Below are positions 9,742 to 63,756 of a stretch of DNA of 64,000 nt, one piece after another. Position 1 is the first letter of the stretch. Each line of letters begins with the position of its first letter. Made by a program: the position numbers and the translations under genes. Source of the DNA: Tomocerus qinae (lineage: Eukaryota; Arthropoda; Collembola; Entomobryomorpha; Tomoceridae); assembly GCA_020055645.1 (NCBI GenBank), contig CM034546.1, positions 37,324,001 through 37,388,000 of the forward strand. The letters are read 5' to 3'. The notes under the pieces are model-generated. The model had not been told where the DNA came from. It saw nothing but the letters and a program-made list of their open reading frames with translations, and did not search any database.

Positions 9742-9819
9742 CTAAAACATTTATAAAGTAATTGTTGCATGGTTATAAATTTAAAGTTTTATAAATATAG
9801 ATAAATGGAATCCGCTAAC

Positions 9820-20680: not shown

Positions 20681-20682
20681 AA

Positions 20683-24120: not shown

Positions 24121-24160
24121 GGGAAAAAATTAAACGCTTAGCCATAAAATACTTTCCAAT

Positions 24161-29763: not shown

Positions 29764-30072
29764 ATTAGGATTCTGTGTATAATAGTAAATTTAATGTGAT
29801 CAAAATTTTGGAAATAAATGGTTTTATCTGAATAATAAAATGCTGTGATAAATGTAAATGTAGATATCCAGTTAATTACAGAAATCTAACTTACGGAGCA
29901 TTTATTTTGAAACCAGTATAGTATGTTCCTCGAGTCAGGGCATTCGTTATCCAACGACGAATAGTCGACGAGTCGTGACCATAGTTCAAGAAGGCTTACG
30001 GAAAGGACTGACAATAAAAGCCTTTGGATCTCGATATTCGATAACAGACATCAATTGCACAGAAGGCGACAA

Positions 30073-31150
30073 AGTAGTTCATGATTATTACCCAATTCGA
30101 CTCTCTTTACAAGACATTTCTCTGCCTCCTCACATTATTCACAAACTTAGGTATTTGTTTCTTTCTTCCAGAGATTTGCAAATGCGACCTATAATCAACG
30201 CTTAAATAACCGAGAATCCAAGCTTGAATATTTTTGAATATTGACTATCAAAACGCGTGTTAAATTTACGTATCAATAGTACTAAGTTCCGAGCAGTCTC
30301 ACATTTTTACGCCTCTGTAGTATATAAAAGCCATCTCTAAAAATATATTATTAAATAATAATGTCCCAAATTCAAAAATTAATAAATATTCATTAGAAGC
30401 CGAAACCATCTCCAGGATTTCCCAGTGACAAAATGGCACTTTCTTGTTCTTTAATTTTTGTAGCCAACTTAATCATCATCTCATGATCTTCCTCAATTAC
30501 TTGCTTAACTGCTATATTGCCAAAGACTAATAACAATAGAGGGCGTTAGTAAAGTTGTAAAGGTAGATGTCGTTTTCTGTGCTATATTGCATGCAACTAT
30601 TTTCGGCACTATTTTCTCTTTTAATTTTCTTTCATCTTATACCAGGTTATCCATTCTCTTCAACAAAACGTAACAATTTTCATAATCTTGGCCACTCAGA
30701 AAATATATACTCTAACAACAGCCATTGAAATAACAGGTTCGTTGCAAAAAGGACATGTCAAGTTAACCTGTAATAGTATTTCAAAAAGTAATTAAACATT
30801 ATGATATGATTATGATTTTTGTGCTAACAACAGATAATTCCTAATTCCAGCTCTGATGTAATGTATTAGGGTGTAAACTGATATCATTTCAAAAGACTTC
30901 AAAATCACCTTCGCATTAAATATGGAGTAATATTACCATTAGTAAAGTTTAACATAATTATGTGAAATAAAACAGCGACTACTATATTAAAAATGTGCAT
31001 GCTTGGAAAGTAAATGACTTACTCCTTTCCTTTTTTAGTATCCAGCAGCCATGTAGACAAACAGAAGTGGTTGAAAACATGCCCACAGAATGTTACAGGA
31101 GCGAATTCTGTTGGTTGTTACAACGGATAAACGAAGATTTATGTGAGCTG
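30073..31150 (-). pseudogene. RING/FAXC-like pseudogene 2
   Basis: Minus-strand pieces are exon 1 (about 31,033-31,140, with FCGHVFNHFCLSTWLLDTKK), exon 2 (about 30,400-30,772, with TCPFCNEP) and exon 3 (about 30,073-30,195). Exon 1 ends at a normal GTAAGT donor (minus-strand AAAGGA/GTAAGT). This copy therefore shows the ancestral GT at the site where the 55-kb gene has GC. The start of exon 1 and all of exon 4 are missing, and exon 2 carries an insert of about 90 bp and stops. Confidence 0.8.
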
Positions 31151-31547: not shown

Positions 31548-33122
31548 CAGTAGACTGTGAGGGATAGGATACTAGGAGGGATATAATGTCCCTCTAAGAC
31601 TAGACTGTAAGGGATAGCTCTATACCGCTATAGGTCCCGAACCATGAGGTTTCAGTCTGGGAGGGATATGTCGTAATCGATTGATATGAATGATCCTATG
31701 GGTACAAGTGCCACAAATATTGCAAATTTTAGGTTACTCTTCCATTTTCATTTTCATCATTATTTTCTATAATATTCATAAATATTAAGTATATTGCACT
31801 TTCTGTATCAGTATAATGCTGCTATAATTATTATTAATTGATATTTTTTCCAAAGCCAGGAGTTCAATTATCTAAATTTTTGCAAGAACTGCTGCTGCCG
31901 TTATAGCATTTAGGACCACCATCATTCTTTTTACAGGGACGTTTACTTAATATTTATGAATATTATAGAAAAACCTACGGCAAGCCGTAATAAAAGCCCG
32001 CCTGAGTGAAGGAGACCGTGTACAAATTTTTTGTGGTATAATAATACATTTATTTTGAATAATAAAATGTAATTCATATTAGATCAATATTTATAATTAT
32101 TGAAAAAACCTTCAAAATCAACGGAAAATCAAAATTGATTAATAATGACTATCAAAATTAACAGAAAAACAAAATTGATTAATGTTGACTATCAAAATTA
32201 ACAGAAAATCAAAATTGATTAATATTGACTATCAAAATTAACAGAAAATCAAAATTGATTAATATTGACTATCAAAATTAACAGAAAAGCAAAATGGATT
32301 AATGTTGACTTTGACTATGAAAATCAACATAAAATCAAAATTTATTAATGTTGACTATGAAAATCAACAGAAAATCAAAAATGATTTATATTAACTATGA
32401 AAATCAACAGAAAATCAAAATTGATTTATGTTGACTATGAAAATCAAAAGAGAATCAAAATCAGTCAATATTAATTATCAAAACTAAAAGTAAATCGAAA
32501 AATGGAAATTTGACTATAAAATTGAATATAAATCCAAAATAGATTTATTTCCATTGTCTAATAGTTATTTTCCAGTTTTATTTGCTTTATCATAAATTTT
32601 TAAATTTGGCAGAAGCGGAGTAAAATATTTTGTACTATCTTACTAACAGTTTATAGGAAACGCAATTGAACTTTTTTAATGCTTATTTTCCACTTTGACT
32701 ATCAAAATGAAGACAAAGTGAGCGCACAGTACCTCAGCAACCTATCAACTGATTTGAACCAAAATAAATGGGGTTCGTCACTGGTCTATAAGCAATGCTG
32801 TTACCATGTTTGGTCAACTTCCGTCATTGTGCTCAAAAGTTATCGTGATAACTGTGGTACGGACGGACGGACGAAGACGACGGACTATGCGGTTCTATAA
32901 GCTGCCTTATTCAGGCAACCTAAAAAATGTAAAAACCTAAAATCTGCGTTATTTGTCACCCTATACATATAGAATTATTCGTATCAATTACGACATATCC
33001 CTTCCATCCCAGACTGAAACCTCATGGTTCGGTACCGCTAGCGAAACAGAGCTATTCCTCCCAGTTTAGTCTGAGAGGGACATTATATCCCTCGTAGTCT
33101 TCTATCTCTCCTAGTCTACTAC
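31548..33122. mobile_element. Long-TIR non-autonomous element with internal satellite
   Basis: Terminal inverted repeats of about 150 bp: left TAGACTGTGAGGGATAGG onward, including GAACCATGAGGTTTCAGTCT, and right the complement ending CTAGTCTACTA. The element interrupts duplicated receptor flank: TTTATTTCTATACGTATCTC in unit A corresponds to sequence on both sides here. TATATG is on both sides, a possible 6-bp duplication. There is no transposase. Confidence 0.82.
32105..32500. repeat. 40-bp tandem repeat
   Basis: About ten head-to-tail copies of a unit of about 40 bp containing AATCAAAATTGATTAATATT and GACTATCAAAATTAACAGAA. Copies are most alike in the middle of the array. It lies wholly inside the TIR element. 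Confidence 0.9.
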
Positions 33123-34925: not shown

Positions 34926-34978
34926 TGAAAATAAGATAAACGATTGGCCATTTGTGTGAAAATACTTTACAATAAAAT

Positions 34979-37009
34979 ATGCATTTGAAAATAGGTTTAT
35001 ATTATTACGCTGCATTAACCATTTTGAGTTTTGGAGGATACGTAAATTGCATTCGAAATTTGTCTTCGTTTAACAACTGCGATTTCAACTTGATTCGATT
35101 TCCAAATTCCAAATGGCTGGAATTGTTCTTGGAGAGAAATCAGAATGGCCAACCTTGGACGATCGCCACGTCGGAAAATAAAACTTTCAAAGAAGTTGAC
35201 AAAGTTACATTTAAAGATTTGTCGAAAAGTCTTTGCAGTGTGAATATCATTGCTGAACATGATGAAACATTTTGGAGTGTAGGTCAATATTTTGGCCAGA
35301 AAATCTCTAGGCCGAATTTCATAATTATATTTCTTTATGACGGGGGACCTGAAAATATTTATACTGACTGGCTTTTGTCACCCTTTGAACAGCCCATGGC
35401 AGACATTTACTATGTCGTCATAACTAACGAGTCTACATTCTCAATTTGGACAATATGCATTTATTGTTTCTTTGAAGTGATTGAAATTAAGTCTACATTG
35501 AATGAAATTGAATGGAAACACATCTGGAATAGTTATGATAGACAACTGTATGGAAATAAGGTTGCAGTGTTTGAAACTTCTGGGTTTAGAAGTCGGTCTA
35601 TTACATTGTTTAAGTGTAGAACTTCGGCTTATGACCTGATTAGACATAAACTTTCTTGTGGGTCAGGTGGAAAAGCAGTAGAGACAATGGCCGAGCGATT
35701 TAACTTTTCTGCTGAATATGATGGAATAAATGGATGGTCTAAGACTTTCTCGAAATTGACAAGATCTATATACGTTTCTGATATAGTGTTAATAAAAGAT
35801 TACACTTTTAATGGCTATTTGTTGAACAGGCACATTTTTGTGGATGATGCTGAATTTGTCCTAGTTTATTGTGAAGAACGGGAATCATTCCACAATCTCC
35901 CTCTTCACGTTATAATTCAAAACACGTTCGATCTACCCAGTTGGATTTTGATCATCATTCTGTTGCCTTCAGCGTATTGGATTTCATCTCACAAGATCCA
36001 AATGCGTTCTTTGTATGCCAGAGTGGAACGAGTGATAACGTCAACTGTGGCTATTGCGTTGGCCCAGTTTGACATCACGCGAGAAAAGCGAAATTTCTGT
36101 CTGTTGCTTTTGATTGCGGCTTTCGTCATTAGGTGCCAATATGAAACTTACATAACAGGGGAGTTAATTATGCCACTTGAAAAGAGAAACTACAAAAATT
36201 TCAAAGAACTTATTGACAACAATTACAAATTTTTACATCAAATCGGATATCATACTGGACTTGATGATCATAATTACTCCGTCGATATATTTTACAAATA
36301 TAATTTAGAAAGCAAGATTAGTACAAACTTGTATGTTTACAACTGGCATAAAGAAAAATCTGCTATGGAATACAGAAAAAAAGGCTATACTGTGTTTGAT
36401 TTAAATGTTGAACTAGTCATGAAACTGGGGGCTAAACTGTTTGTACCATATATGAAATCTAAGTTAGCACAAATATTTTCTACAATACTAGACAAAGACG
36501 AGAAGGCAATTTGCAAAACGGCAGATGAAAAAGTTGCAGAAAGTATGTTTTCTTATACTTTTCAATATGCTTTTCGAAATAAGTTTAAAATTTTTTTCGG
36601 TACCCTTTTTGAGTCGGGGTTTATAAAACTGTGGAGCGACCTAGTTGATGAACAGATTTTCTATTCCCATTGGGAAAAGGAGGAAAAATCAAAATATGAA
36701 AAAAATCAGGCTGTACCAATCAGCCTTGGCATGAAAATTCACGTAATATTCCTTTGGTATTTATTTCTGCTCGCTGGCTCATCTGTTATCTTTCTGTTGG
36801 AATTTTGTTGTCGACGATTTCAATGCCTTTGTTTGGACATGGATAATCTGAAAAATATTGCTGGTCACTTTCTGTCTACTTTCAAAAACCTGAAGAAAAA
36901 ATTCAATTTGGTAACATCACGAGAAATGTCAAACAGGAGACTGTTTGACAGGTCACAGACTAGGATTGAATTATGGTTTACACAAAATCGTCAAAAATCA
37001 CCTGTTTAA
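34979..37009 (+). CDS. Type 3 ionotropic receptor D, intact
   Basis: A single 676-residue frame without intron. A signal peptide (1-24, MHLKIGLYYYAALTILSFGG) is followed by an extracellular region with many N-glycosylation sequons (NKT, NES, NFS). M1 is at 320-336 (SWILIIILLPSAYWIS). The pore segment is about 346-366 and M3 371-396 ending RCQYETYITGEL, the counterpart of the iGluR SYTANLAAF gate. The S2 lobe contains KNFKELIDNNY and ICKTADEKV. M4 is 588-610, with a cytoplasmic tail of about 65 residues. Compared with E, F and H it lacks about seven residues after IYC (near 163). It most likely forms a cation channel with other IR subunits in sensory neurons (inferred). The best-preserved D-type copy; B is its dead sister. 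Confidence 0.9.
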   Translation: MHLKIGLYYYAALTILSFGGYVNCIRNLSSFNNCDFNLIRFPNSKWLELFLERNQNGQPWTIATSENKTFKEVDKVTFKDLSKSLCSVNIIAEHDETFWSVGQYFGQKISRPNFIIIFLYDGGPENIYTDWLLSPFEQPMADIYYVVITNESTFSIWTICIYCFFEVIEIKSTLNEIEWKHIWNSYDRQLYGNKVAVFETSGFRSRSITLFKCRTSAYDLIRHKLSCGSGGKAVETMAERFNFSAEYDGINGWSKTFSKLTRSIYVSDIVLIKDYTFNGYLLNRHIFVDDAEFVLVYCEERESFHNLPLHVIIQNTFDLPSWILIIILLPSAYWISSHKIQMRSLYARVERVITSTVAIALAQFDITREKRNFCLLLLIAAFVIRCQYETYITGELIMPLEKRNYKNFKELIDNNYKFLHQIGYHTGLDDHNYSVDIFYKYNLESKISTNLYVYNWHKEKSAMEYRKKGYTVFDLNVELVMKLGAKLFVPYMKSKLAQIFSTILDKDEKAICKTADEKVAESMFSYTFQYAFRNKFKIFFGTLFESGFIKLWSDLVDEQIFYSHWEKEEKSKYEKNQAVPISLGMKIHVIFLWYLFLLAGSSVIFLLEFCCRRFQCLCLDMDNLKNIAGHFLSTFKNLKKKFNLVTSREMSNRRLFDRSQTRIELWFTQNRQKSPV

Positions 37010-38888: not shown

Positions 38889-38990
38889 TGACGTCAATTG
38901 AATTGAATGTGATATGATGTATTATATGCAATTGCAGAATTAATGTTTGTGTTTTGTTATACATTACTGTTCATACTACGAAGCTCAGTT
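38889..38990 (+). promoter_or_regulatory. Promoter of receptor E
   Basis: TGACGTCA at 38,889-38,896, TATAC at 38,958-38,962 and TCAGTT with its A at 38,987. The TATA-to-initiator spacing is 29 bp, and the 5' leader to the ATG at 39,038 would be 51 nt. Confidence 0.65.
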
Positions 38991-39037
38991 TGAAAAAACA
39001 TTACGACAGTTGTGACTTTGATATTTTCCATCACAAT

Positions 39038-41221
39038 ATGCATTTGAAAATTTCTTTAAATTATTATCTAGCCTTAACCATTTTGAGTTTTGGAGGATAC
39101 GTAAATTGCACTCGAAATTTGTCTTTGTTTAACAACTGCGATTTCAATTTGATTCGGTTTCCAAATTCCAAATGGCTGGAATTGTTTTTGGAGAGAAATC
39201 AGAATGGCCAACCTTGGACCATCGCCACGTCGGAAAATAAAACTTTCGACGAAGTTGACAAAGTGACATTTAAGGATTTGTCGAAAAGTCTTTGCAATGT
39301 GAATATAATTGCAGAACCCGATCGAACATTTTGGAATCTAACTCAATATTTTGGCCAGAAGATCTCTCGTCCGAATTTCATAACTATATTTCTTTATGAC
39401 GGGAGACCTAAAGATGGTAATTCTAAATGGCTTTTGGAATTCATTGATCATCCCATGACAGACATTTACTATATCCTCATAACAAACGAGTCTACATATT
39501 CAATTGTGACAATATGCCTTTATTGTAACACTTTTCCGGTTAGATCCTTTGTAGCTACTTTAATTAAACCTACACTGAACGAAATTGAATGGAAACAAAT
39601 TTGGAATAGTTATGATAGACAGCTTTATGGAAATAAGGTTGCAGTGTTTTTAAATGATGCGAGTAATAAACGACCTTTTACATTACGTTTATGTAAAACA
39701 TCGGCTTATAATTTGATTAAATACAGACACGCTTATTGCTATTCCAGTGCAAAAGCAATAGAGACAATGGCCGAGCGGTTTAACTTTTCTGCTGAATATG
39801 ATGACATAAGTAATTGGCATAAAACTTATGCGGCATTGGCAAGACCTAAATACGTTTCTGACATTTACTGGATCAACGATTACACCTTTTATGGATACTG
39901 GTTCAACAGGCACATTTTTGTGGATAATCATGAATATGTCTTAGTTTATTGTGAAGAACAGGAATCATTCTACAATCTTCCTTTTCGCGTTATAATTACA
40001 AACACATTCGATATATCCAGTTGGATTTTGATTATCATTCTTTTATCTTCAGCGTATTGGATCTCGTCTCACAAGATCCAAATGCGTTCATTGTACGTCA
40101 GAGTGGAACGAGTGATAACGTCAACTGTGGCTATTGCGTTGGCCCAATTTGACATCACGCGAGAAAAAAGAAGTTTCTGTCTTCTGATTGTTATTGTAGC
40201 TTTTGTCATCAGGTGTCATTATGAAACTTACATAACGGGAGAATTAGTTGTGCCACTTGACAAGAAGATTTACAGAAACTTCAAAGAATTGATTGACAAC
40301 AATTACAGATTTTCACATCAAATGGGATATCATACTGGATATCCCGAAAGTAATGTCTCAGTTGATTTATTTTACAAATTTCATTTGGAAAGCAAGATTA
40401 GTACAAATTTATATATTTACAACTGGCAAAGCGAAAAATCTGCTACGGAATACAGAAAAAAAGGTCATTCTCAATATACTTTAAATGTCGAACTAATCAT
40501 GAAACCGGGGGCTAAATTATTTTTACAATATCCTAAATCGAGATTAGGAGAAATCTTTTCTGAAATACTAAAACGAGACGACAAGGCAATTTGCAAAACG
40601 GCAGATGAAAAGGTTTCAGATAAACTACGATCTTATCTCTTTAGATTTGCCTTTCGGAATAAATTTAAAATTTTTTTTGGTACGCTTTTTGAGTCAGGGT
40701 TTATAAAACTGTGGAGAGACCTGGATGATGTACAGTTATTCTATTCCTATTGGGAGAAGGAGCAAAAATCAAAATATGAAAACAATCAAGCTGTACCAAT
40801 CGATCTTGGCATGAAAATTCATGTAATATTCCTTTGGTATCTATTTCTGCTCTGTGGCTCATCTGTTATCTTTCTGTTGGAATTGGGTTGTCGACGATTT
40901 CAATGCCTTTGTTTGGACACGGATAAACTAAAAAATATTGGTCGTCGCCTTCTGTCTAGTCCTAAAAGCCTAAAGAAATATATCATAGTAAGTATGAAAA
41001 ATCTTTGTGCGATTGTGCTTAATATTGTAGCATCACCACGAGAAATGCTCAGCAGCTTATTTCAAAGGTCGTTGACTAGGGTTGAACCGTGGCTTACACC
41101 GGTGTTTCCTCAAAACCGTCCAAAATCACCTGTTCAAATCGCAGAAAGTTCAGACAATAATATTCTTAGAATAGTAGCTGATTTATCTATCTGCGTTAAT
41201 ATAATGATGACACAGATGTAA
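39038..41221 (+). CDS. Type 3 ionotropic receptor E, intact
   Basis: A 727-residue intronless receptor. The ATG at 39,038 is chosen over the in-frame ATG at 38,954, because the predicted start site is at 38,987 and paralogs begin at the same MHLK. The signal peptide is MHLKISLNYYLALTILSFGG. The ligand domain, M1 (SSWILIIILLSSAYWIS), pore block, M3 (RCHYETYITGELVVPLD) and M4 (IFLWYLFLLCGSSVIFLLEL) are all in place. The tail is longer than in D (about 120 residues after M4) and includes IIVSMKNLCAIVLNIV, an amphipathic or membrane-near stretch also present in F and H. Regions around residues 95-160 and 200-260 differ most from D, while the pore block is nearly the same. Function as for D (inferred). 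Confidence 0.9.
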   Translation: MHLKISLNYYLALTILSFGGYVNCTRNLSLFNNCDFNLIRFPNSKWLELFLERNQNGQPWTIATSENKTFDEVDKVTFKDLSKSLCNVNIIAEPDRTFWNLTQYFGQKISRPNFITIFLYDGRPKDGNSKWLLEFIDHPMTDIYYILITNESTYSIVTICLYCNTFPVRSFVATLIKPTLNEIEWKQIWNSYDRQLYGNKVAVFLNDASNKRPFTLRLCKTSAYNLIKYRHAYCYSSAKAIETMAERFNFSAEYDDISNWHKTYAALARPKYVSDIYWINDYTFYGYWFNRHIFVDNHEYVLVYCEEQESFYNLPFRVIITNTFDISSWILIIILLSSAYWISSHKIQMRSLYVRVERVITSTVAIALAQFDITREKRSFCLLIVIVAFVIRCHYETYITGELVVPLDKKIYRNFKELIDNNYRFSHQMGYHTGYPESNVSVDLFYKFHLESKISTNLYIYNWQSEKSATEYRKKGHSQYTLNVELIMKPGAKLFLQYPKSRLGEIFSEILKRDDKAICKTADEKVSDKLRSYLFRFAFRNKFKIFFGTLFESGFIKLWRDLDDVQLFYSYWEKEQKSKYENNQAVPIDLGMKIHVIFLWYLFLLCGSSVIFLLELGCRRFQCLCLDTDKLKNIGRRLLSSPKSLKKYIIVSMKNLCAIVLNIVASPREMLSSLFQRSLTRVEPWLTPVFPQNRPKSPVQIAESSDNNILRIVADLSICVNIMMTQM

Positions 41222-43065: not shown

Positions 43066-43169
43066 ACTCTAAATTTTTTCTATTTTGCATCACAAATGAC
43101 TTCAAATCACCTTCGCATTAATTAGGAGTGGAGTAAAACTAGCATTAGTAAAATTTGACATCATTAAAT

Positions 43170-43379
43170 GTAGAATAAAATAATCGTTACTCCATTAAAA
43201 TGTGCGGATAAAAGAAATGACTTTTTCCTTCCAGACGTAGACAAACAGAAATTGTGGAAAATATGCCCACAGAATGTTCCGAGTTCCGACTCTGTAATAA
43301 ATGTAGTTCCTTGAGCAACTTCTGTTGGTTCCATTAGGAAATCAAAAAAAATTGGGCAAATATAGCAGTTCATTTTCAA
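43170..43379 (-). pseudogene. RING/FAXC-like exon 1 fragment (pseudogene 3)
   Basis: The minus strand reads MNCYICPIFFDFLMEPTE, then TFCGHIFHNFCLSTS. The second RING Cys is lost (Phe in FF), and the TKKGKG end with its splice donor is deleted. Exons 2-4 are not found nearby. Confidence 0.75.
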
Positions 43380-43599
43380 TGTAATCTTCTATAGATCAGA
43401 ATGCAGCAGGAACACAACAGGAGAGAATGTAGAGAAACTTCGTCGATATTTGACTGTTTATTTCTTTAGGTGTGATTTTCCGACTTTTCGTCCGAACTGA
43501 ATAGATCCACGAGCTCTACTTACATATTGGATTTTAAAGAAGTTTTGTAATAATTATTACCATTGGAGTGAACTGCTCAGTCGTATCGAGAAATCAAAT

Positions 43600-45234: not shown

Positions 45235-45330
45235 TGACGTCATTTGTGTGAATGTGATATGATATATATGGAATTGCAGAACTAACGTTTGTTTTGTTAT
45301 ACTTTACTGTTCAGTAGGTCGTTCAGTTTG
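45235..45330 (+). promoter_or_regulatory. Promoter of receptor F
   Basis: TGACGTCA at 45,235-45,242, TATAC at 45,298-45,302 and TCAGTT with its A at 45,325. The leader to the ATG at 45,381 would be 56 nt. Confidence 0.65.
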
Positions 45331-45380
45331 AAAAAACATTAACGACATTTGTGTCTTACTTTGATACTTTCCATTACAAT

Positions 45381-47428
45381 ATGCATTTGAAATTTTATTT
45401 AAACTATTACCTAGCCTTAACCATTTTGAGTTTTGGAGGATACGTAAATTGCATTCGAAATTTGTCTTCGTTCAACAACTGCGATTTCAACTTGATTCGA
45501 TTTCCAAACTCCAAATGGCTGGAATTGTTTTTGGAGAGAAATCAGAATGGTCAACCTTGGACAATCGCCACGTCAAAAAATAAAACTTTCAATGAAGTTG
45601 ACAAAGTTACATTTAAGGATTTGTCGAAAAGTCTTTGCAGTGTAAATATCATTGCTGAACCCGATAAAACATTTTGGGGTCTACCTCATTATTTTGGCCA
45701 GAAGATCTCTCGTCCGAATTTCATAACTATATTCCTTTATGACGGGGGACCTGAAGATGGTAATTCTAATTGGCTTTTGAAACCCATTAAACATCCCATG
45801 GCAGACATTTACTATATCCTCATAACAAACGAGTATACATTCTCAATTTGGACAACGTGCATTTATTGTAATACTTTCCCCGTAAGTTTCTTTGTATCTA
45901 CTGAAATTAAACCTACACTAAATGAAATTGAATGGAAACACATCTGGAATAGTTATGATAGACAGCTTTATGGAAATAAGGTTGCAGTGTTTGAAAATGC
46001 TGCGGGTAGGAAACAATCTATTACATTATCTTTTTGCAGAATGTCGGCTTATGATGTCATTAAATATAAACACGTTTGTAATTCCGGTGCAAAAGCAGTA
46101 GAGACAATGGCCGGGCGGTTTAACTTTTCTGCTGAATATGATGACATAAGTAATTGGGCCAAAACTTATGCGGCATTGGCAAGACCTAAATATGTTTCTG
46201 AAATTTACTTGATTAATGACTACATCTTTTATGGATACTGGTTCAACAGGCACATTTTTGTGGATGATGTTGAATATGTCCTAGTTTATTGTGAAGAAAG
46301 GGAATTATTCGACAATCTTCCTCTTCACGTTATAATTACAAACACATTCGATCTATCCAGTTGGATTTTGATTATTATTCTGTTACCTTCAGCGTATTGG
46401 ATCTCGTCTCACAAGATCCAAATGCGTTCATTGTATGCCAGAGTGGAACGAGTGATAACGTCAACTGTGGCTATTGCGTTGGCCCAATTTGACATCACGC
46501 GAGAAAAAAGAAGTTTCTGTCTTCTGATTGTTATTGTAGCTTTTGTCATCAGGTGTCAATATGAAACTTATATAACCGAAAAATTAGTTGTACCACTTGA
46601 AAAGAAGAGTTACAGAAACTTCCAAGAATTAATTGACAACAATTACAGATTTTCCCATCAAATGGGATATTATACTGGATATGGCGAAGGCAATTTTTCA
46701 GTTGATTTATTTTACAAATTTCATTTAGAAAGCAAGATTAGTACAAATTTATATATTTACAACTGGCAAAGCGAAAAATCTGCTACGGAATACAGAGCAA
46801 AAGGCTACTCTCAATATACTTTAAATGTGGAACTAATCATGAAACCAGGGTCTAAATTGTTTTTACAATATCCTAAATCGAGATTAGGACAAATATTTTC
46901 TGAAATACTAAAAAGAAACGACAAGGCAATTTGCAAAACGGCAGATGAAAAGGTTTCAGATAAACTACGATCTTATCACTTTAGATTCGCCTTTCGGAAT
47001 AAATTTCAAATTTTTTTTGGTACGCTTTTTGAATCGGGGTTTATGAAACTGTGGAAAGACCTAGATGACGTACGGGATTACTATACCTATTGGCAGACGG
47101 AGGAAAATCAAAATACGAAAACAATCAAGCTGTACCAATCAGCCTTGGCATGAAAACTCACGAAATCTTCATTTGGTATCTATTTCTGCTAGCTGGTTCA
47201 TCCTTTATCTTTCTGTTGGAATTGTGTTGTCGACGATTTCAATGCCATTGTTTGGACATGGATATACTGAAAGATGTTGTTGGTCGCCTTCTGTCTAGTC
47301 TTAAAAACCAAAAAATATATATCATAGTAAGTATGAAAAGTCTTTGGGCGACTGTACACAATACTGTTGCGTCACAGGAAATGCTCCGGAACCTATATCA
47401 AAGGTCGCAGACTAGGGTTGGATCGTAG
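45381..47428 (+). pseudogene. Type 3 ionotropic receptor F, single frameshift
   Basis: Intact from the ATG at 45,381 through signal peptide, ligand domain, M1, pore and M3 (RCQYETYITEKLVVPL) to the end of S2. One A is then missing from the run in the EEKSKYEN codons (about 47,101-47,107). The frame goes off and stops at 47,153, before M4. M4 and the tail (IFIWYLFLLAGSSFIFLLEL onward) are intact in the next frame to 47,428. A channel without M4 would not be expected to work. With just one lesion in a homopolymer this may equally be a sequencing error, a segregating null allele or a very young pseudogene. It is closest to H and E. Confidence 0.88.
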
Positions 47429-47884: not shown

Positions 47885-48725
47885 AAGTAAGCTTTCTGTC
47901 CATGACCATTAATAAAGCATTAGTGTATCAAAAAGCCAGTTTACCGATCGACCTTTTCATATTTTAGGCCCAACTGATACTGTTTTCTCAACATAAAATT
48001 GTTACCCCAAACGGTTTTGACAGCATTGTAAATTACATTAGATCTTGCTTCTTTGACGTCTTCATGTGGGCAGTATAGCTTAGTAAAAGAGCTTTTGGAA
48101 AAAAGGGAAGAAAAAGGGAAGAAGGAAGGGAAAAATGAGAAGAAACAACCGCTACGGTAATTTCTTGCGCTACGCGCAATTTTATCTTGGTTTCCTTTAA
48201 ATTTTTCTCTTCTAAACTGAGAAAAATTCTTGCGCTACTCACAATTTTATCCGGTTTTCCTCTGAATTTTTCGATTCTAAATTGCAAAAAGTTTAATGCG
48301 CTACGCGCAATTTTATCCTACTTTCTTTGACTTTTTGCTTTTAAATAGCAATATTTTACCACTTCGTATTAATTCTTATCAATTTTCCCCTTCTGAATGC
48401 CAAAAACCTTTAGGGCGTAGCGCAACTACATATTTTTATTCGTACCCCAAAACCGGGAAAAATTTTCCCCCAAAACTGGGAAGAATTTTGTTGATACTTT
48501 GGATACCGGGAAGAAACATAATTTCCACCAGCGTAGCTTACTTCCATTGCTAAATGCAGAGAAAGTCGTTTCTGTCGATTTGAATTTGACTTTCTAGGAA
48601 ATATTTTAGACATGTGACCATTAATAATTATTGAGTAGTAAACTTGTAAAGTCGGTTCTTTAGCAATTTCTGTTGGTTCCATTCCATTAGCAAATCGATA
48701 CAAATTGCGCAAATATAGTAGATCA
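47885..48725 (-). pseudogene. Type 2 receptor scraps fused to a RING exon 1 scrap
   Basis: Minus strand, in order: a RING exon 1 piece (about 48,650-48,725; MEPTEIAKEP), then INGHMSKIFPRKSNSNRQK and LSLH of the type 2 receptor (about 48,545-48,635), and further S2 scraps at about 47,890-48,050. The junction between RING and receptor scraps makes one accidental open frame. Confidence 0.65.
48170..48430. repeat. Imperfect tandem repeat with GCGCTACGCGCAA palindrome
   Basis: Three to four units of roughly 60 bp, each with TTGCGCTACGCGCAATTTTA and a T-rich remainder (48,174, about 48,229, 48,295, and a trace at about 48,412). The palindrome differs from the GCGCGAAGCGCGAAA of the MITE family. 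Confidence 0.65.
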
Positions 48726-49319
48726 TCTTAAATGTAATCTTCTATCTATATTAATCAGAATGCAATACATACATAACTGGAAAGAAAGTAGTAACTTTGT
48801 CAATATTTGACTGTTTATTTGTTTTCATATGACTGATTTAACCACAATGAATCAATCACGATTTTTCGGCCATATACTGAACAGAGCCATGAGCTCCACT
48901 TAGGTGTTACGTTTTAAAAGAAGGTTTGTAATAATTCTTAAGATTGGGGTGAACTCGTCAACTATGCGCAATCGCCATCTAGTTTTATACACATTTCAAA
49001 ATAATATGCATGAAATAGAATCATATTATGTATATTATTCAAAAAATGTCAACATTATGCAGTTGTTACAGTTTTAACTATTTCAGCATTATTATTGTGA
49101 TTGTTTGAAATGACGTGCAATAACAGCGGCCATATCATCCGAAGACAAGCACAATCATTTTTAATTGTGGTTAATGTCACGAGAGAATGGATAGAAGAAG
49201 GTTGATGTGACCTGATGAGGGCATTATTATTATTATTTATTGGTTTCCTTCAGACGATGTGACCTTTGATCTTTACGTCCAATACAGTGTTTTTTAACAA
49301 TGCATGATGACAACCTGAT

Positions 49320-51335: not shown

Positions 51336-51375
51336 AATCATATCTTGACTATCATATTCCATGTTAAATTTCTTT

Positions 51376-51689
51376 TAGCAAAAGCGATATAAGTGGAAGA
51401 ATACTGGACCGAAAATTACAAGATTGGTATCGCCAGAAAGCCCGATTCTTCATTGACAACGACATTAAGAGACATTTTCATTTGATAGCCTAGGTTGGAA
51501 GTAATTGATGTTTCCCTAAAAAATGGCATTTTTTGGCTATATTTGATGGTTAAAATATCAATTACTTCTAACATAGACCATCAAATGAAAATGTCTCTTA
51601 ATGTCGTTGTCAATGAAGAATCGGGCTTTCTGGCGATACCAATCTTGTAATTTTCGGTCCAGTATTCTTCCACTTATATCGCTTTTGCC
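51376..51689. mobile_element. Large foldback (palindromic) element
   Basis: Two arms of about 130 bp, almost perfectly complementary, from AGCAAAAGCGATATAAGTGG on the left to CCACTTATATCGCTTTTGCC on the right, with a centre of about 50 bp. No ORF and no clear target duplication. The arms are so alike that insertion or formation must be recent. Confidence 0.85.
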
Positions 51690-52118
51690 AAAAAAAGTGG
51701 TCATTTATGCAACTCTCTTTCTCGGTCATAGGGCTTATTGAGAAAAGTGTCTGTCCTTGGTAACAATGTGCTGTTGCGCTAAATTTGAAATAATACATCT
51801 CCATCTAATAACTACAAACTATTATGATCAGACTTTCATTGTCATTTTCATGCAATCCAAATCTGAAATCTGACTGCCTGTGCTGTGCGTATATGGTGTT
51901 CTATAAAAAAGGTGAATATCTTTCTTCTATCTCAGTTAGTCCGACTGTTTTCAGTGTTTTTTGGGAAGGACAATAGGTAGGGCACAAGGGGGGTACATGC
52001 ATAATAAACTATTGTAATGGAATAACTAGCTTGCGAAAAACTCAACATTCCACCACCGCACATGCACGCATAGTGCATCTTTGTATATCTTGTCTAATGT
52101 CTTGCGGTTACATAGTGT

Positions 52119-52529: not shown

Positions 52530-54755
52530 TAAATTTTAGATGATTGTGGTGATATCGGATTGGTATTTTTATATGTCATTTATACAGACTGGCTTTCATA
52601 AACAGACCCTGGACGGGCTCTGTGAATCTACATTGACTTAGTTTAGTTGTTTACTTTTTTTGTTAGATACATAGCAACATCCCCAATTGTGGCATAAACA
52701 ATCAGAGTATTTTATGTATGCACTATGACCTTAACGTTTTAATTCTACAGTCAACTTACGCTTTCAAGTTTGATGTATTATTTTAGATTTAGTATTATTG
52801 TTTTTTATCACAGTAATATCATTCTCCACGTCCTTCTTTTGCATGCTTGTAGTCTTTGAATAATTTCAAAGACTTGAAATGAAAAGTAATTATGCGTTTT
52901 ATACGAAGCTTATAAATAATTTCACTTAATTATTTCAGATTGTGTGGTCGCTAAGAATTGCGTGAGTTTAAAAACTTTAGTTTAGTTTTAATTATAAATA
53001 CAAGTTCCACGGCAGCCTTTTTGTAAACATACACGTGTCATGTCATAGTCATAAGTATTACTTAATTGAAACACTTTTCCTACGATCCCAATTTTGGATT
53101 TCCGAACCTTTTTATTTATGTACTGCAGATATTGAAACATTTGCAAAGTTGCCTTAAAACACTAGAATGGCCACTTAGATTTTCTTCTTGGAATATTCGA
53201 TGAATTCTATTATACTCGCTAAATTAAAATTGTTCCAAAAGTACAAACTCAATTACATAATTGCGTGTTGCGTGCGTTTTCACACGAAAATAATCGTCCG
53301 TTAAAGAAGGAAGCAGCCAATTTACTTTTTGTTTAGTACAGGGATATCCATTTTTCTTTTATTACATGAAATAGCCTAACTCCACTAACAAATGTATGGA
53401 TATAGGCTTTCTCCTGAACCAAAAAGAAAATGAATATTGGCTTTTTTCTGTACCAAGCAATAAATGTGGGCGGTCCAATACAATACAGTGATCTAGTAAG
53501 TGTGCAGTATAGTAGTAACCCCATTCCTTACTACTAGCCTTACTCTACATTTCTGGACTCTTAGTAGCTCATAACTCATAAATGAATATTGGATTTTTCC
53601 TGTACCAATCTAAAAGTAGATAGAGGCTTTTTCCGTCCTTATATAAGGAACGTTATGCGCTTTTCCAATGTAAGAAAAATTCAAAAATAAATAGGATACG
53701 AGGACATTTGGATGAAATTTTCACACGGCTGTAAAGTACATAGAAATTTGGAACTGGACTTTCATGGCGAGGAAAAATACAGGAACGGGTGTTGTTAGTC
53801 TAGTTCACCGAAAATGTTAATTTACACTCGTTTATGAAAACTTGGTCAAGTATACTCTAAATAAAAGTGATATTATTCTGTATGTTTTGAAAACAAGTTT
53901 TTCATATTGTACCAGCTGTTCATAATTTCCTTCTTTTAGCATAACTATGTGATGCTAAAAATATTTTTGTATCATATTCGAGTGCAATTAGTTTGAGGCA
54001 GATATTAATTATTGTTATTTCGAATATATTGGCAATGAAATATATTTGAACAGTGAAAGGACTGACAGGGACATACACTTCATAAGTTTAGATCCTAATA
54101 CTAACTCTGACATACAAAATGTAGGCTTTAATTGGACAGTCAACAATCGACAGAACTTTAACAAATGTATACTTGTGCTGACATAACATCGTACAGTAGG
54201 CTGAAGAAAATCAAACATTTTATCCTTGATACTTGAGTATTAGTCCACCTTTCTGTATACACCAAAGTAATGCAAGGGTGGAAAATATTCAATTTTGCAA
54301 TTACTAAAATCATGCATGTTCAAAAATGGGCTGTTTTCTAGACAAATAGACTAACTTTGAATATTCATATGGTATAGTAAAGTAATTGCACTAAATCGTA
54401 GACTTTTATAAAGCACTAAAGGCTATATAAATGGAATCATAAAAATCTATACGGCATGCAAGATGAAGTCCACATTATAAACAGTTAGAACTGATGTACT
54501 AATTGAATAAGCTAATTGATTTCGTATATTATGACTGTGACTACCATCAAATAAAACAGTTCGATTGATTAACCCTAGAAGGATCTGGGGGTTGTGGGGT
54601 GGATACCTTATATAGGATTCAAGTCGAGAAATATATTACTAAATTAATCAATACTAATTACTAAATCATCAATATCAACATAAATACTAAATTGCCAAAG
54701 TTTATGAATTGCTTTTTATATTTCCTCCAATGCGTACAGATTATCCGATGAAAGA
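52530..54755. repeat. Duplicated type 2 receptor upstream flank
   Basis: Interrupted matches to 19,100-20,300 run through 52,800-53,200 and 53,680-54,260. At 53,340-53,660 there is a repeat-like insert with GGCTTTTTTCTGTACCA-type units. No gene. Confidence 0.5.
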
Positions 54756-55639: not shown

Positions 55640-57657
55640 ATGAGCTGCTATATTTGCCTAATTTGTTTTGATTTGCTATTAGAACCAACAGAATTTGCTC
55701 CAGGAACGACTTCACAAGTTTATTACCCAGTTGGAACATTCTGTGGCCACGTTTTCCACCATATCTGTTTGTCTACATGGCTAGACACTAAAAAAGGAAA
55801 GGGGCAAGTCATTTCTTTTATCAGCATATTTTAATATTGTAGCTTTTGCTTTATTCCATATTTAATTATGTCAAGATTTTACTAATGATGGGTGATATGA
55901 TACAGTAGTAAACTGTAATGAATACAGTTTACTACCTCAAAGTAATATATCAAAGATAAAATTAGGGTGTACAAGTACATGTTGATAAAAAATCATTTCA
56001 TTAATTTTCTTTATGAAATAATATTGACTACAGGTTACCCTTGACTTGTCCTTTTTGCAACGAACCTATCCTTATAATGGACGTTGTCAGAATGTATTTT
56101 CTTGGCAGCCAAGAAAATTTATGAAGATTATTACTCTTTTTTGAAGAAAAGGGATATTGTGATCTTGGATGAAAGACCATTAAAAGAGGAAATGGAATTG
56201 GCGAAAATAGACACACATGAACTTCAACAGGCAATCGAGGACGATTATTATATGATAATTGAGTTGGCTGTAAACATTGAACGACAGGAGAATGTCATTT
56301 TGTCATTCGGCAATCCTGCAGGAAGTTTCAGGTGATAATAAATATTTATTGAATCTTGGAAATTATTATTTAATAGTGTATCTTTTGGCAATGACTTTAT
56401 TCACTTTATTAGTGGTCCCAGTTGCAAATCTTTGGAAGAAGAACATAAATTTCTAACTGAATTATGTGAAGAGGCTGAGAAATATCTTGCAATGCAAGTC
56501 GAATTGGAAAATCATCATGAACTTCTTCGTCGTTTCGCTTCTGATACTATTTCAAGCAATGACAATGCTGAACGAGTATCCGTTAATTCCGATGACAAAA
56601 ATACAGCCACAGACGATATCCCAGAGGAAATGTTGGAACAAATTAATCAGCTTGAAATGTAAGTAGTGCAAATTATTGTTTGAAATACAAAGAATTAAAT
56701 TATCCCTTTCAATACGAATTAACCATTTAAACTTATTTCAGAAAGCAAGAAATTTGTACCGAGAAGGAAAGGGCTTTGGAAAATTTAATGAAAAACTATT
56801 TCGATACAGATTCATCGCTGTCTATTGCTAATATAATCAGAACCACAACAATTGGAAGTTCGTTAGGTTTCACTGAAAAACGGACAGTTGAAGAATGCAT
56901 GCAAAATCGATATTTTAAATTCCCCATTTCAAAAAAGCAAGTCATTATTTACCTTCCACGAGGAAATTCCTACTTCCCAACGCTTGAGCTGCTCCAATTA
57001 CAACTCGTTGCATTTTTAAAAGTGTCTAAAATCCGATACAAATTTAAAACCATAAAACCCGATGTTCAAAATTGTCCTGTCCTAAGAATTGGTAACAAAA
57101 ATATTTACGACCCGAACATTTGCTGCGAATTAATAAAGAAAATGTATTGCAAGATACCAAAGGAGAAAAAAAGACACTACAAATGGATTAAATTGTGCAA
57201 TATTTTCTCCACTAAGATGATTTGGGGGATTCTACTCTGGCAATGGGTTTACAGTGACGAAGATCCAATGATGTTTCCCAAAAATGACAATTCGAAAATG
57301 ATTGCTGCAGCTATTAAAATACAAATCCAAGAAAAGGCGAGAGAAGAATCATTATTTGGCTTCCTGGAAAAAGAAAAAGTCATTCAAATTGTCATCCACG
57401 ATTTTAAAGTACTTTCGAGGGAACTCGGAGAGAATGACTACTTTTTTGGAGCAAAACCAAATGAAATTGACTGCTGCGCTTTCGTTCTATTGGCTCAAAT
57501 ATTATGGAATACTCCTGGATCTGAACTTCGAGAGGAATTAATCAAGCAAGACAATCTGATCGCTTTCGTCAAACGGATGAGACAAACATTTTGGCCAGAA
57601 TGGATGGCAGGCTCTGCTGTTCCTCTTTTTTGGGTTAGTCAACCTTCATGTCGTTAA
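55640..57657 (+). CDS. RING-H2 finger fused to FAXC/metaxin-type GST fold
   Basis: Exons 55,640-55,803, 56,034-56,331, 56,413-56,658 and 56,742-57,657; about 539 residues if one 4-bp insertion is discounted. Residues 1-65 form a RING-H2: C6, C9, C35, H37, H40, C43, then C60-P-F-C63 across intron 1. A charged, probably coiled middle (about 75-235) follows. Exon 4 encodes a thioredoxin-like N-half (KKQVIIYLPRG, cis-Pro in NCPVLRIGN) and a GST C-half ending FFGAKPNEIDCCAFVLLAQI, typical of failed-axon-connections/metaxin proteins (GST_N_4/GST_C_6). A role as an E3 ubiquitin ligase using the GST fold for binding is inferred. Intron 1 uses GC (GGG/GCAAGT). In exon 2, CAAGAAAATTTATGAAG has four extra bases compared with both pseudogenes (CAAGATTATGAAG), breaking the frame near 56,112. 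The gene may be newly dead or mis-sequenced. Confidence 0.8.
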
Positions 57658-58975: not shown

Positions 58976-59416
58976 TCTTAAAATTTGGAGTGAGGCACGA
59001 GTTACTAAACTTAGTATAATATCTTTTGATAGTACAGTTGCGGTTATTTATAAATAATGTTGGAAAATATCATCATTAATTTATTGAAGATTTAAGAATC
59101 CTTCCAGGCTCAGTTTCTAATTAAATTTTAACTAAAGTATTCAAATAAATTTGTAATGAGGTCTTAATTTGTAATATTCATCTTTTCATAGAACAGAGAA
59201 CGAGACGGGTTGAACTCCCATGAATTTCTCCCACTTCAAAAACTATTAAATTTTGAAAAATAAACTGACTTAAATAAAATTTATGAAATGACATTGTATT
59301 CCAAATTTTTTTCTATTTTTGCATCACAAACGACTTTAAAACCACCTTAATTATGGGGTAAAACTAGCATTTGTAAAATTTGACTTCATTAAATGTGAAA
59401 TGAAACAATTGTTACT

Positions 59417-59625
59417 CTATTCAAATGTGCTGATAAAAGAAATGACCCTTTCCTCTTTCAGTATCCAGCCGTAGACAAACAGAAATGGTGGAAAATATGC
59501 CAAGAATGTTCCGAGTTTCGACTGGGTAATAAACTTCGTCGTTCCTGGAGCAATTTCTGTTGGCTCCATTAGCAAATCAAAACAAATTGCGCAAATATAG
59601 CAGTTCATCTTGGATGTAATCTTCT
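59417..59625 (-). pseudogene. RING/FAXC-like exon 1 fragment (pseudogene 5)
   Basis: The minus strand gives MNCYICAICFDLLMEPTE, then APGTTKFITQSKLGTF. The CGHVFHH part is then scrambled by a small deletion, and the splice donor is deleted (AAAGGG runs straight into TCATTTC). The first RING Cys pair is intact. Exons 2-4 are absent. Confidence 0.8.
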
Positions 59626-60239
59626 ATAGATCTATATGAATCAGAATGCAGCAGGAACACACTGGGGATAATGTAGAAAAAAGATATTTGACTGTTTATT
59701 TCTTTTGGTGCGATTTTCCGACTTTTCGTCCTAACTGAAAAGAGCCACGAGCTCTACTTAGATATTGCATTTTAAGGAAGTTTTGTAATAATTGTTACCA
59801 TTTGGGTGAACATGTCTACATTGCCCAAAGTCACCTTTTTGTTTTACACACATTTCAAAATAATATGTACGAATGGGGTGCACCGGGGTACGTTACCCCC
59901 ACTCCCCGAAATCGAAATAAATAAAGAAATTAAAAACGCAAAAAGTTACGAAAATTATTATAGTATTACTTGGTGCCCACGAAATTTTTTTATGGCTGCG
60001 ATGCTGTCAGTATTAAACATAGTATTATTCAAAATAATATATATATTATACAGTTGCAGTTTGAACTATTTCAGCATTATTATTTTGTAATGTGTGTGTA
60101 ATAACTGTTTCGATATTATCTGAAGACAAGCACAATCATTTTTGATTTGTGCTTATTAATGCCACGAGAGAATGTTGATTATGAAAGCCAAATGAAATTG
60201 AAATCCATCGGAAGTGAAAAGTAGATAACAGAAGGTTTA

Positions 60240-61393
60240 TGTGAGTTGATGGCTGAGACCATTCAAAAGCATTTCTTAAACTGATTCGATTAAACCACAA
60301 TATTGGACTTGAAAGATGAACACGACAAAAGTTGGGCGAAAGTTTTCTCATCTCCATCTCCCTTCATAATTTACAATTTATATTACATATTGTACATCCT
60401 ATTATTATTGTTCAGTGTTCATAGTAATCTTAAATATTATAACATTCATAATGTTTTGAATCTTTTGGTTCGTTTTTTGATAATTTTCATTTCTAATGCT
60501 AACAGTAATTTTTTACCAATGTATTAACACAGCAAGAAGAAGATATTGAGTGACGTTTGCATGCAATAACTCTAACTCCGCTTTCAACATCCAAATTATT
60601 CAAACGAGACAGGAATCGATTTCCTTTGCCTTTGCTTGCTTGCACAATACAGCTTATTGGTATATTCGAGGTTGCGACTACTATCTAGAAGACTCAGACA
60701 CGAACCATACTATATAGGTGTGAGGTAAAACTATACACTATAGACGAAATACTAGTTAACTCGCAGTTAGACTTATTTTGTAGGCAAACTGTGCAAACCA
60801 CAATATTGAGTAAAAGAGCTTAACAAGGAATAGAAATGTTTTGTGATGTTTCTATGAGCCAGCGCCCCTCTGACGTCAATTGTATAATATAGTATTGAAT
60901 GTATTGATTTAAACGGAATGATAGAGTTAACATTTGGGTTTTGAATATATTATATTATTGTCTAGTACGTCACTCAGTTTGAAAAAGAAACATTAAACGA
61001 GTAGCCATTTGTAGAATTAGTTTCTACTACAAAACGAATTTTAAAATTTGTTTTTGTTATTCCATTCCATTAACCATTTTAATTTTTGGAAAAATCGCAA
61101 ATTACATTCAAACTCTGTATGTAGTTTTACATTCATCTCAAAATATTGTGCATGGGATAAAAATCATTTAAAAACTCCGTTGTACTTTTTATTATTTCAA
61201 CATTAGTTGTGTGAAAACGCTTACATTAGTGTTTAGTACCAACATAAACATACTTTGCTGTGGTAGTCAACAGTTGAACTGTCCACTTCGTACCACTTTG
61301 TAATTGAGGTATCATTTTACATCTGAGAATTTGTTTGGAAAAGCATTAAACGATAAGACAATTGTGTACTACTTTGACATTTTCCATTGCAAT
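60240..61393 (+). promoter_or_regulatory. Upstream region of receptor H with promoter module and stub
   Basis: CRE TGACGTCA at 60,871-60,878 and TCAGTT with its A near 60,977 lie before a signal-peptide stub at about 61,030-61,140. The filler block follows and leads almost directly into the H coding sequence. The second promoter module that E and F have just before their ATG is missing here, so H transcription probably starts near 60,977 or from an unrecognised site. Confidence 0.5.
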
Positions 61394-63355
61394 ATGCATT
61401 TGAAAATTTATTTAAATTATTACTTTATCATTTTGAGTTTTGGAGGATACGTAAATTGCATTCAAAATTTGTCTTCGTTCAACAACTGCGATTTCAACTT
61501 GATTCGATTTCCAAATTCCAAATGGCTGGAATTGTTCTTGGAGAGAAATCAGAATGGCCAACCTTGGACCATCGCCACGTCGGAAAATAAAAGTTTGGAC
61601 GAAGTTGACAAAGTGACATTTAAGGATTTGTCGAAAAGTCTTTGCAGTGTGAATATCATTGCTGAACACGATAAAAATTTTTGGAATCTAACTCAATATT
61701 TTGGCCAGAAGATCTCTCGTCCGAATTTCATAACTATATTTCTTTATGACGGGGGACCTGAAAATGTTTATAAATCGTGGCTATCGAAACCCATTAATCA
61801 TCCTGTGGCAGACATTTACTACATCTTTATTAGAAATTGGTTTACATTCTCAATTTGGAAAATGTGCATTTATTGTAATACTTTTCCTGTCAGCTACTTT
61901 GCATCCACTGAAATTAAACCTACATTGAATGAAATTGAATGGAAGCACATTTGGGATAGTTATGATAGACAGCTTTATGGAAATAAGGTTGCTGTGCTTT
62001 TAAATGCTGCGGGCAGTAAACAATCTTTTACATTATCTTTTTGTAAAACATCGGCTTATAATGTCGTTAAATACAGATACGTTTATTGCTATTCCGGTGC
62101 AAAAGCAACAGAGACAATGGCCGAGCGGTTTAAGTTTTCTGCTGAATATGATGACATAATGAATTGGCATAAAACTTACTCGGGATTAGAAAGACCTAAA
62201 TACGTTTCTGAAATTTACTTGATCAATGATTACATCTTTTATGGTTACGGGTTAAACAGGCACATTTTTGTGGATGATATTGAATATGTCCTAGTTTATT
62301 GTGAAGAAAGGGAATCATTCTACAATCTTCCTCTTTACGTTATAATTACAAACACATTCGATATATCCAGTTGGATTTTGATTATCATTCTGTTACCTTC
62401 AGCGTATTGGATCTCGTCTCACAAGATCCAAATGCGTTCATTGTATGCCAGAGTGGAACGAGTGATAACGTCAACTGTGGCTATTGTGTTGGACCAATTT
62501 GACATCACGCGAGAAAAAAGAAATTTCTGTCTTCTGATCGTTATTGTAGCTTTTGTCATCAGGTGTCATTATGAAACTTATATAACGGAAAATTTAGTTG
62601 TGCCACTTAGAAAGAAGAGTTACAGAAACTTCAAAGAATTAATTGACAACAATTATAGATTTTCGCATCAAATGGGATATTATACTGGATATCCCACAAA
62701 TAATGTCTCAGTTGATTTATTTAACAAATTTCATTTAGAAAGCAAGATTAATACAAATTTATATATTTACACCTGGCAAAACGAAATATCTGCTACGGAA
62801 TACAGAGCAAAAGGCTATTCTCAATTTTCTTTAAATGTCGAACTAATCATGAAACCGGGGGCTAAATTATTTTTACAATATCCTAAATCGAGATTAGGAC
62901 AAATATTTTATGAAATACTAAAAAGAGATGACAAGGCAATTTGCAAAACGGCAGATGAAAAAGTTTCAGATAAACTACGATCTTATCTTTTTGCATTTGC
63001 CTTTCGGAATAAATTTCAAATCTTTTTTGGCACGCTTTTTGAATCGGGATTTATGAAACTGTGGAGAGACCTGGATGATGTACGGGATTTCTATTCCTAT
63101 TGGGAGAAGGAGGAGAAATCAAAATATGAAAATAATCAAGCTGTACCAATCAGCCTTGGCATGAAAACTCACGAAATTTTCATTTGGTATTTATTTCTGC
63201 TAGCTGGCTCATTCTTTATGTTTCTGTTGGAATTATGTTGTCGACGATTTCAATGCAATTGTTTGGACATGGATAAATTGAAAAATATTGCTGGTCGCCT
63301 TCTGTCTAGTCTTAAAAACCTAAAGACATATCGTCTGCCTAATATTACAACGTAA
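61394..63355 (+). CDS. Type 3 ionotropic receptor H, tail altered by insertion
   Basis: A 653-residue intronless receptor from the MHLK start shared by its paralogs (an in-frame ATG at 61,304 is upstream of all homology). The signal peptide is about three residues shorter than in E. M1 (SSWILIIILLPSAYWIS), pore, M3 (RCHYETYITENLVVPL) and M4 (IFIWYLFLLAGSFFMFLLEL) are complete. The pore block has a change found only here (IVLDQFDITREK versus IALAQFDITREK in the others). The last seven codons (RLPNITT) come from the foldback element inserted at 63,332, which replaces the tail seen in E and F. Since M4 is kept, the channel core should still form. Confidence 0.88.
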   Translation: MHLKIYLNYYFIILSFGGYVNCIQNLSSFNNCDFNLIRFPNSKWLELFLERNQNGQPWTIATSENKSLDEVDKVTFKDLSKSLCSVNIIAEHDKNFWNLTQYFGQKISRPNFITIFLYDGGPENVYKSWLSKPINHPVADIYYIFIRNWFTFSIWKMCIYCNTFPVSYFASTEIKPTLNEIEWKHIWDSYDRQLYGNKVAVLLNAAGSKQSFTLSFCKTSAYNVVKYRYVYCYSGAKATETMAERFKFSAEYDDIMNWHKTYSGLERPKYVSEIYLINDYIFYGYGLNRHIFVDDIEYVLVYCEERESFYNLPLYVIITNTFDISSWILIIILLPSAYWISSHKIQMRSLYARVERVITSTVAIVLDQFDITREKRNFCLLIVIVAFVIRCHYETYITENLVVPLRKKSYRNFKELIDNNYRFSHQMGYYTGYPTNNVSVDLFNKFHLESKINTNLYIYTWQNEISATEYRAKGYSQFSLNVELIMKPGAKLFLQYPKSRLGQIFYEILKRDDKAICKTADEKVSDKLRSYLFAFAFRNKFQIFFGTLFESGFMKLWRDLDDVRDFYSYWEKEEKSKYENNQAVPISLGMKTHEIFIWYLFLLAGSFFMFLLELCCRRFQCNCLDMDKLKNIAGRLLSSLKNLKTYRLPNITT

Positions 63356-63599
63356 CAAGCCATTTCATCATGACTGCTACAAAGTAACAAACCATTTTAT
63401 CATGGCTGAGACAAAGTAACAAACCATTTTATCATGACCGCGACAATGTAGCAAACCAATGTATCAGGAGTTAGGTTTGTTACATTGTCGCAGCCATGAT
63501 AAAATGGTTTGTTACTTTGTCTCAGGCATGATAAAATGGTTTGTTACTTTGTAGCAGTCATGATAAAATGGCTTGTTACGTTGTAATATTAGGCAGACG
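63332..63599. mobile_element. Foldback MITE with internal short repeats
   Basis: A 268-bp near-perfect palindrome: CGTCTGCCTAATATTACAAC on the left, its complement ending GGCAGACG on the right. Each arm holds three to four units of about 33 bp with AGTAACAAACCATTTTATCA. ATAT stands on both sides, a possible target duplication. Paralogs E and F lack it at this codon. Confidence 0.92.
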
Positions 63600-63756
63600 A
63601 TATATCATAGTATGTATTAAAAATCTTTGGGCGACTGTACCCAATATTGTAGCATCACGAGAAATGCTCAGGAGCCTATATCAAGGTCGCAGACAAGGGT
63701 TGAATCCGCGATGTCTAAGAAACGAGAATGTTACGCCAGACGACCGCTCTACCTGA
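63600..63756 (+). pseudogene. Displaced C-terminal tail of receptor H
   Basis: Continues the homology of E and F after the insertion: IKNLWATVPNIVASREMLRS and then LYQ. It is cut off from the receptor frame by the stop inside the element and loses the E frame soon after (near 63,685). Confidence 0.8.

Follow-up and report, generated by a model that had tools for sequence, protein, structure and literature searches.

RING-type E3 ubiquitin ligases contact their E2 through hydrophobic and Trp positions of the RING, and an Arg linchpin after the last RING ligand is common among them, though not universal. In TRAIP/no poles, an N-terminal RING is followed by a coiled coil, and the protein carries a C-terminal PCNA-binding motif. 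FAXC (failed axon connections) has been described as an outlying member of the metaxin family that is predicted to pair with MTX2 (PMC10452860). Experimental data on FAXC are scarce according to the same source, and the portion of that article considered here does not mention a RING for FAXC. A search of the open literature, covering titles and abstract openings, found no protein in which a RING and a FAXC/metaxin-type GST domain are combined.

We have analysed a window of 64,000 nucleotides (C1:37324001-37388000) from the genome of the collembolan Tomocerus qinae (334 Mb, 115 contigs), in which a RING-H2 and a FAXC-type domain follow one another on the same strand. This unit, copy A, was compared with two intact paralogs, B and C, with a broken copy, D, and with degraded copies, c1 to c5, in the window itself. 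Its parts are as follows.

55640 to 55803, plus strand: exon 1, first part of the RING-H2 (ligands C6 to C43), with a GC-AG donor (GGG/GCAAGT), phase 2
56034 to 56331, plus strand: exon 2 as conserved in B and C, with the last RING ligands (CPFC) and a coiled-coil-like stretch; donor CAG/GTGATA, phase 2 in B and C
56113 to 56124, plus strand: four-base length excess relative to B, C, D, c1 and c2, and the resulting stop TGA at 56122-56124 (codon 85)
56413 to 56658, plus strand: exon 3, coiled-coil-like, both ends phase 2 in B and C
56742 to 57657, plus strand: exon 4, with a linker followed by the complete FAXC/metaxin-type GST domain, without intron, with the terminal stop
56998 to 57255, plus strand: weak GST_N_4 match, E=0.098, below the cut-off
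57397 to 57579, plus strand: GST_C_6 match, E=5.2e-17, above the cut-off

The initial annotation had named eight RING ligands (C6, C9, C35, H37, H40, C43, C60, C63), and these are borne out: they stand in the C3H2C3 order of a RING-H2, and several Pfam RING models match exon 1 alone as well as exons 1 and 2 joined, some of them over the cut-off. In view of these matches and of homologous RINGs elsewhere in the genome, we rejected a chance origin of the pattern. The failed-axon-connections-like domain that had been proposed at the C-terminus is found as well, since the exon 4 protein of copy A reaches 61.8 bits against GST_C_6 (cut-off 28), but the thioredoxin-like half, GST_N_4, is matched weakly in A and C (E=0.0099 in C), is unlisted at E<=0.01 for B, and stays below its 30-bit cut-off in all three copies. 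None of the 12 matches listed when the genome was searched for GST_N_4 falls within the RING-FAXC stretch. A PDB search with exon 4 returned one marginal GST (E=0.081), and an AlphaFold prediction of exon 4 alone from the single sequence gave a mean pLDDT of 35, too low to confirm a GST fold. Rfam yielded no match at gathering scores across the 64-kb window, and no relatives of exon 4 were seen in plasmids and viral contigs at the settings used.

From the GC donor at 55804, copy A continues into the exon 2 frame LPLTCPFCNEPI. Copies A, B and D share a GC donor at intron 1; C has GT at the matching place, which supports the GC donor. A GT at 55808 (phase 0) was considered as the donor and rejected, as exon 2 would then no longer be read in the frame that gives CPFC.

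When the genome was searched with the exon 4 protein, at least 19 matches were obtained, among them those of copy B (C1:36783308-36784219, 92% identity) and copy C (C1:36855557-36856474, 84% identity), which both cover all 304 residues without stops. B and C lie 0.5-0.6 Mb from copy A on the same chromosome, and the broken copy D, which was aligned with the three, lies at C1:37.40 Mb. The spliced genes run from ATG to stop over four exons and encode 539 (B) and 541 (C) amino acids, with all three introns in phase 2; the stop codon of B is completed just beyond an alignment gap. Their splice sites are kept in the alignment with A and D, and each single protein exceeds the Pfam cut-off for GST_C_6 (59.9 bits in B, 54.7 in C, cut-off 28) as well as that of one or more RING models. 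The earlier suggestion that the fusion is no accident of one copy thus stands, with open frames in B and C and collinear remains in the degraded copies. B and C differ at 167 of 1611 aligned coding bases. Their coding indels (3, 3, 6, 3 and 3) are all five multiples of three, as are two of the seven intron indels (32, 24, 2, 8, 2, 1 and 6), and when random substitution was simulated at the B-C level, with indels not counted, the frame stayed open in 6 of 5000 cases.

These observations bear on the question whether the unit might be not one fusion but two adjoining genes, a short RING gene followed by a fax gene that lacks introns. This genome does have a RING gene that stands alone, L047, with a product of 171 aa, and the middle exons of the unit are weakly constrained, as would fit such an arrangement. 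However, both parts of B and of C fall into a single open frame with three phase-2 introns, the coding indels between the two copies are in frame throughout, and the exon 3 donor and exon 4 acceptor are kept in four of the four aligned copies (A, B, C and D). We regard two separate genes as very unlikely and favour a single fused gene, whose transcript, judging from the sequence, would join exons 1-2 to exons 3-4.

For an estimate of selection, dN/dS was obtained by a Nei-Gojobori count over whole codons, with the disrupted exon 2 stretch of copy A omitted and with one-sided Fisher p values; comparisons with the broken copy D (0.32 to 1.34) were kept out of the argument. Constraint is seen at the RING and FAXC ends. 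For the FAXC part (237 codons), the ratio was 0.17 for A-B (p 9.7e-7), 0.28 for A-C (p 1e-5) and 0.46 for B-C (p 0.012), the last value being uncertain because the B-C synonymous divergence of this part, 0.117, is low compared to the B-C divergence of the introns (0.18-0.30). Whole exon 4 gave 0.27 (A-B), 0.34 (A-C) and 0.56 (B-C), and the RING (78 codons) gave 0.61 for A-B (p 0.23, not significant), 0.36 for A-C (p 0.02) and 0.39 for B-C (p 0.013). The middle exons are not clearly constrained, with values of 0.88, 0.61 and 0.52 for exon 2b and of 0.61, 0.41 and 0.64 for exon 3 in the same order of pairs (B-C p 0.12 and 0.2, respectively). Intron divergences are scattered (A-B 0.12, 0.02 and 0.25; B-C 0.18, 0.20 and 0.30), such that the neutral level is poorly fixed.

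Under the exon structure conserved in B and C, the reading frame of copy A is disrupted in the assembly, a feature that the initial annotation had not noted in its account of a four-exon gene with consistent phases. The conserved exon 2 measures 298 nt in A versus 294 in B and 291 in C, and an excess of four bases near 56113-56119 makes A longer than all five copies that can be aligned there (B, C, D, c1 and c2); c3, c4 and c5 end short of the site and lie outside that comparison. The stop at codon 85 results from these extra bases shifting the frame, and beyond them exon 2 of A stays open in a different frame, which is the one translated by B and C. If the length difference were an assembly or sequencing error, A would be as intact as B and C, and its other exons are indeed open and its splice sites kept. 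An excess of four bases is not, however, the simple miscount of one homopolymer, and an error of this kind seems to us quite doubtful.

There is another way in which copy A could be a working gene. If exon 2 ended at 56093 (AAT/GTATTT), the frame-shifted part would be skipped and A would read in frame to the final stop as a protein of 461 aa, and this may have been the gene model of the initial annotation. The GT after 56093 is also present in the broken copy D, exon 4 of A has an open frame of 304 codons, and the FAXC part of that exon is strongly constrained in the comparison with B. Yet this GT is missing from B and C, which implies that the longer form of exon 2 is the one used in the intact paralogs, and the CAG/GTGATA donor is still present in A. 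Moreover, the A-B constraint covers both lineages and the time preceding any loss. An alternatively spliced working gene is therefore unlikely, if less so than some other readings of this locus. In our preferred reading, copy A would be a recent pseudogene and is probably not the working copy, and the notion of an intact gene at 55640-57657 does not hold; it could be upheld if splicing took the alternative donor, or if the four bases were erroneous.

The window contains further, degraded copies of the unit.

20552 to 21966, minus strand: c1, with RING remnant, exons 2 and 3, the C-terminal end of FAXC and 3' flank; a large deletion runs from exon 3 into exon 4
30067 to 31097, minus strand: c2, with RING part and exons 2 and 3
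43143 to 43574, minus strand: c3, a 5' fragment with upstream region, exon 1 and the start of intron 1
48632 to 49024, minus strand: c5, a 5' fragment with upstream region and part of exon 1
59368 to 59873, minus strand: c4, a 5' fragment with upstream region, exon 1 and the start of intron 1

Copy c1 is presumably the pseudogene in which the same exon order had been reported, and its collinear RING remnant, exons 2 and 3 and FAXC end agree with that report. Among the matches listed in the searches of the genome, every joined RING-FAXC copy lies within one stretch of 0.62 Mb. Such a cluster of intact and dead copies shows a chimeric gene whose birth and death are still under way, and the many dead copies suggest that constraint on the family is weak. 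Two smaller pieces were also seen, a lone 74% match at 54445-54561 (minus strand) to the sequence that directly follows the RING-FAXC gene on its 3' side, and a broken FAXC fragment at C1:37.39 Mb (L043:5415-5780) that adjoins a receptor-like match starting at L043:5775.

Receptor-like sequences are also found within the window. Five dispersed copies of an open frame of about 2 kb lie on the plus strand (24134-26170, 34976-37009, 38918-41221, 45318-47153 and 61304-63355), with blocks that share 64-94% identity with a reference copy, the 24134 copy being split into several frames. These long frames resemble divergent insect-type ionotropic receptors; Pfam gave no match for the two of the five that were tested, nor for two more long receptor-like open frames on the minus strand (13952-16144 and 17232-18833). 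Relatives of the 17232-18833 frame occur in the stretches that contain copies C and D (L029 and L030), which suggests a shared segmental duplication. The window further holds an endonuclease-reverse transcriptase domain at 9781-10602 on the minus strand (Exo_endo_phos_2, E=2e-6), probably of a non-LTR retrotransposon, a tandem array at 32034-32540 with mostly 40-base spacing, and inverted repeats at 51370-51696 (arm 144 nt, spacer 39) and 63325-63606 (arm 133 nt, spacer 16), both 95% complementary.

With respect to the origin of the two halves, a RING search of the genome gave at least 22 matches, 12 of them in C1 36.78-37.40 Mb and 10 elsewhere. By eye, and among the matches listed, none of these 10 outside RINGs lies within 1 Mb of the 10 outside fax-like matches or of the 12 GST_N_4 matches. 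Of these 10 RINGs, three (L047-L049) were retrieved, and the exon structure was worked out for L047 (C2:43.55 Mb). In this stand-alone gene, exon 1 encodes the first half of the RING and is followed by a phase-2 intron at the matching place; exon 2 completes the RING and continues into a coiled-coil-like part, and after a second intron, also in phase 2, a short exon ends the gene. Its RING is 52% identical to that of B over 52 aa.

On the side of the FAXC domain, 12 fax- or metaxin-like stretches (L031-L042) were examined. Eight of them (L031, L032, L033, L034, L035, L038, L040 and L041) match the FAXC part of B or C at E<=1, L031 reaching only E 0.39, and four (L036, L037, L039 and L042) show none at this threshold. 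The possibility that ordinary fax loci also bear a RING was discarded: none was found in the 12 stretches, either by tblastn with B and C (E<=1) or by the RING pattern, searches that an intron-split or unusual RING would escape. In L032, the best-read fax-like locus and the one whose exon structure enters the comparison, introns divide the domain among several exons, and exon 4 of the fused gene holds it whole. Taken together with the L047-like 5' half, this fits the fusion of a RING-coiled-coil gene with an intronless fax copy. The simplest history would be that such a copy joined the 3' end of the RING-coiled-coil gene; alternatively, exon 4 could have become intronless by intron loss after a fusion at the DNA level, and not by retroposition.

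We thus consider it probable that the unit belongs to a chimeric RING-FAXC family that was duplicated locally and whose intact product acts as a RING E3. In this scenario, a gene with RING-H2 and coiled-coil-like parts (exons 1-3, with phase-2 introns) would have gained a FAXC-type GST domain as a single 3' exon, whose source was probably an intronless (retroposed or intron-stripped) fax copy. Duplication within 0.62 Mb of one chromosome would then have given rise to at least two intact genes, B and C, to the frame-disrupted copy A and to several fragments. The intact product, if expressed, would most likely be a RING-type E3 ubiquitin ligase, in which the RING would bind E2~ubiquitin, the middle part would oligomerise and the FAXC domain would dock a partner or substrate.

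That the protein is an E3 ligase can be fairly predicted from the RING and its Trp. Ile8 and Trp47 of the copy A RING align with an Ile and a Trp of HRD1, which suggests E2 binding. The Arg that follows the last ligand in HRD1 is replaced by Asn in A, B and C, and ligase activity could for this reason be weaker or modest. As a conjecture, the fused protein may act on fax or metaxin partners. A more specific version, to which we give a small chance, is that of a young, lineage-restricted E3 family made of RING-coiled-coil and retroposed fax, in which the FAXC domain would bind partners of the fax or metaxin-2 type and thereby direct ubiquitin towards targets in axons or on the outer membrane of mitochondria. 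Given how scarce experimental data on FAXC are, a fusion of the domain with an E3-type module, arisen in nature, would point to a role in protein docking.

In comparison with described proteins, the fused gene resembles parts of several. Closest to its 5' half within the same genome is L047, with which it shares the N-terminal RING, the place of intron 1, phase-2 introns (both of those in L047) and a coiled-coil-like tail, but L047 ends at 171 aa without a FAXC domain. The L047-type RING is reminiscent of TRAIP/no poles. In the fused product, the RING comes first and a charged stretch follows. With FAXC and the metaxins, the fused protein shares GST_C_6 over the cut-off, and its GST_N_4 match, weak and below the cut-off, lies in the right order; the fax/metaxin-like loci of its own genome differ, with no RING in the 12 stretches and with the intron-split domain of L032. 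The eight-ligand RING-H2 is common to HRD1 and RBX1, and the best PDB matches of the RING include an E3 RING (6f98, E=3.4e-5) whose aligned sequence is the same as that of HRD1. From HRD1, the fused protein differs by its Asn after the last ligand and by its C-terminal partner, which is a FAXC-type GST domain.
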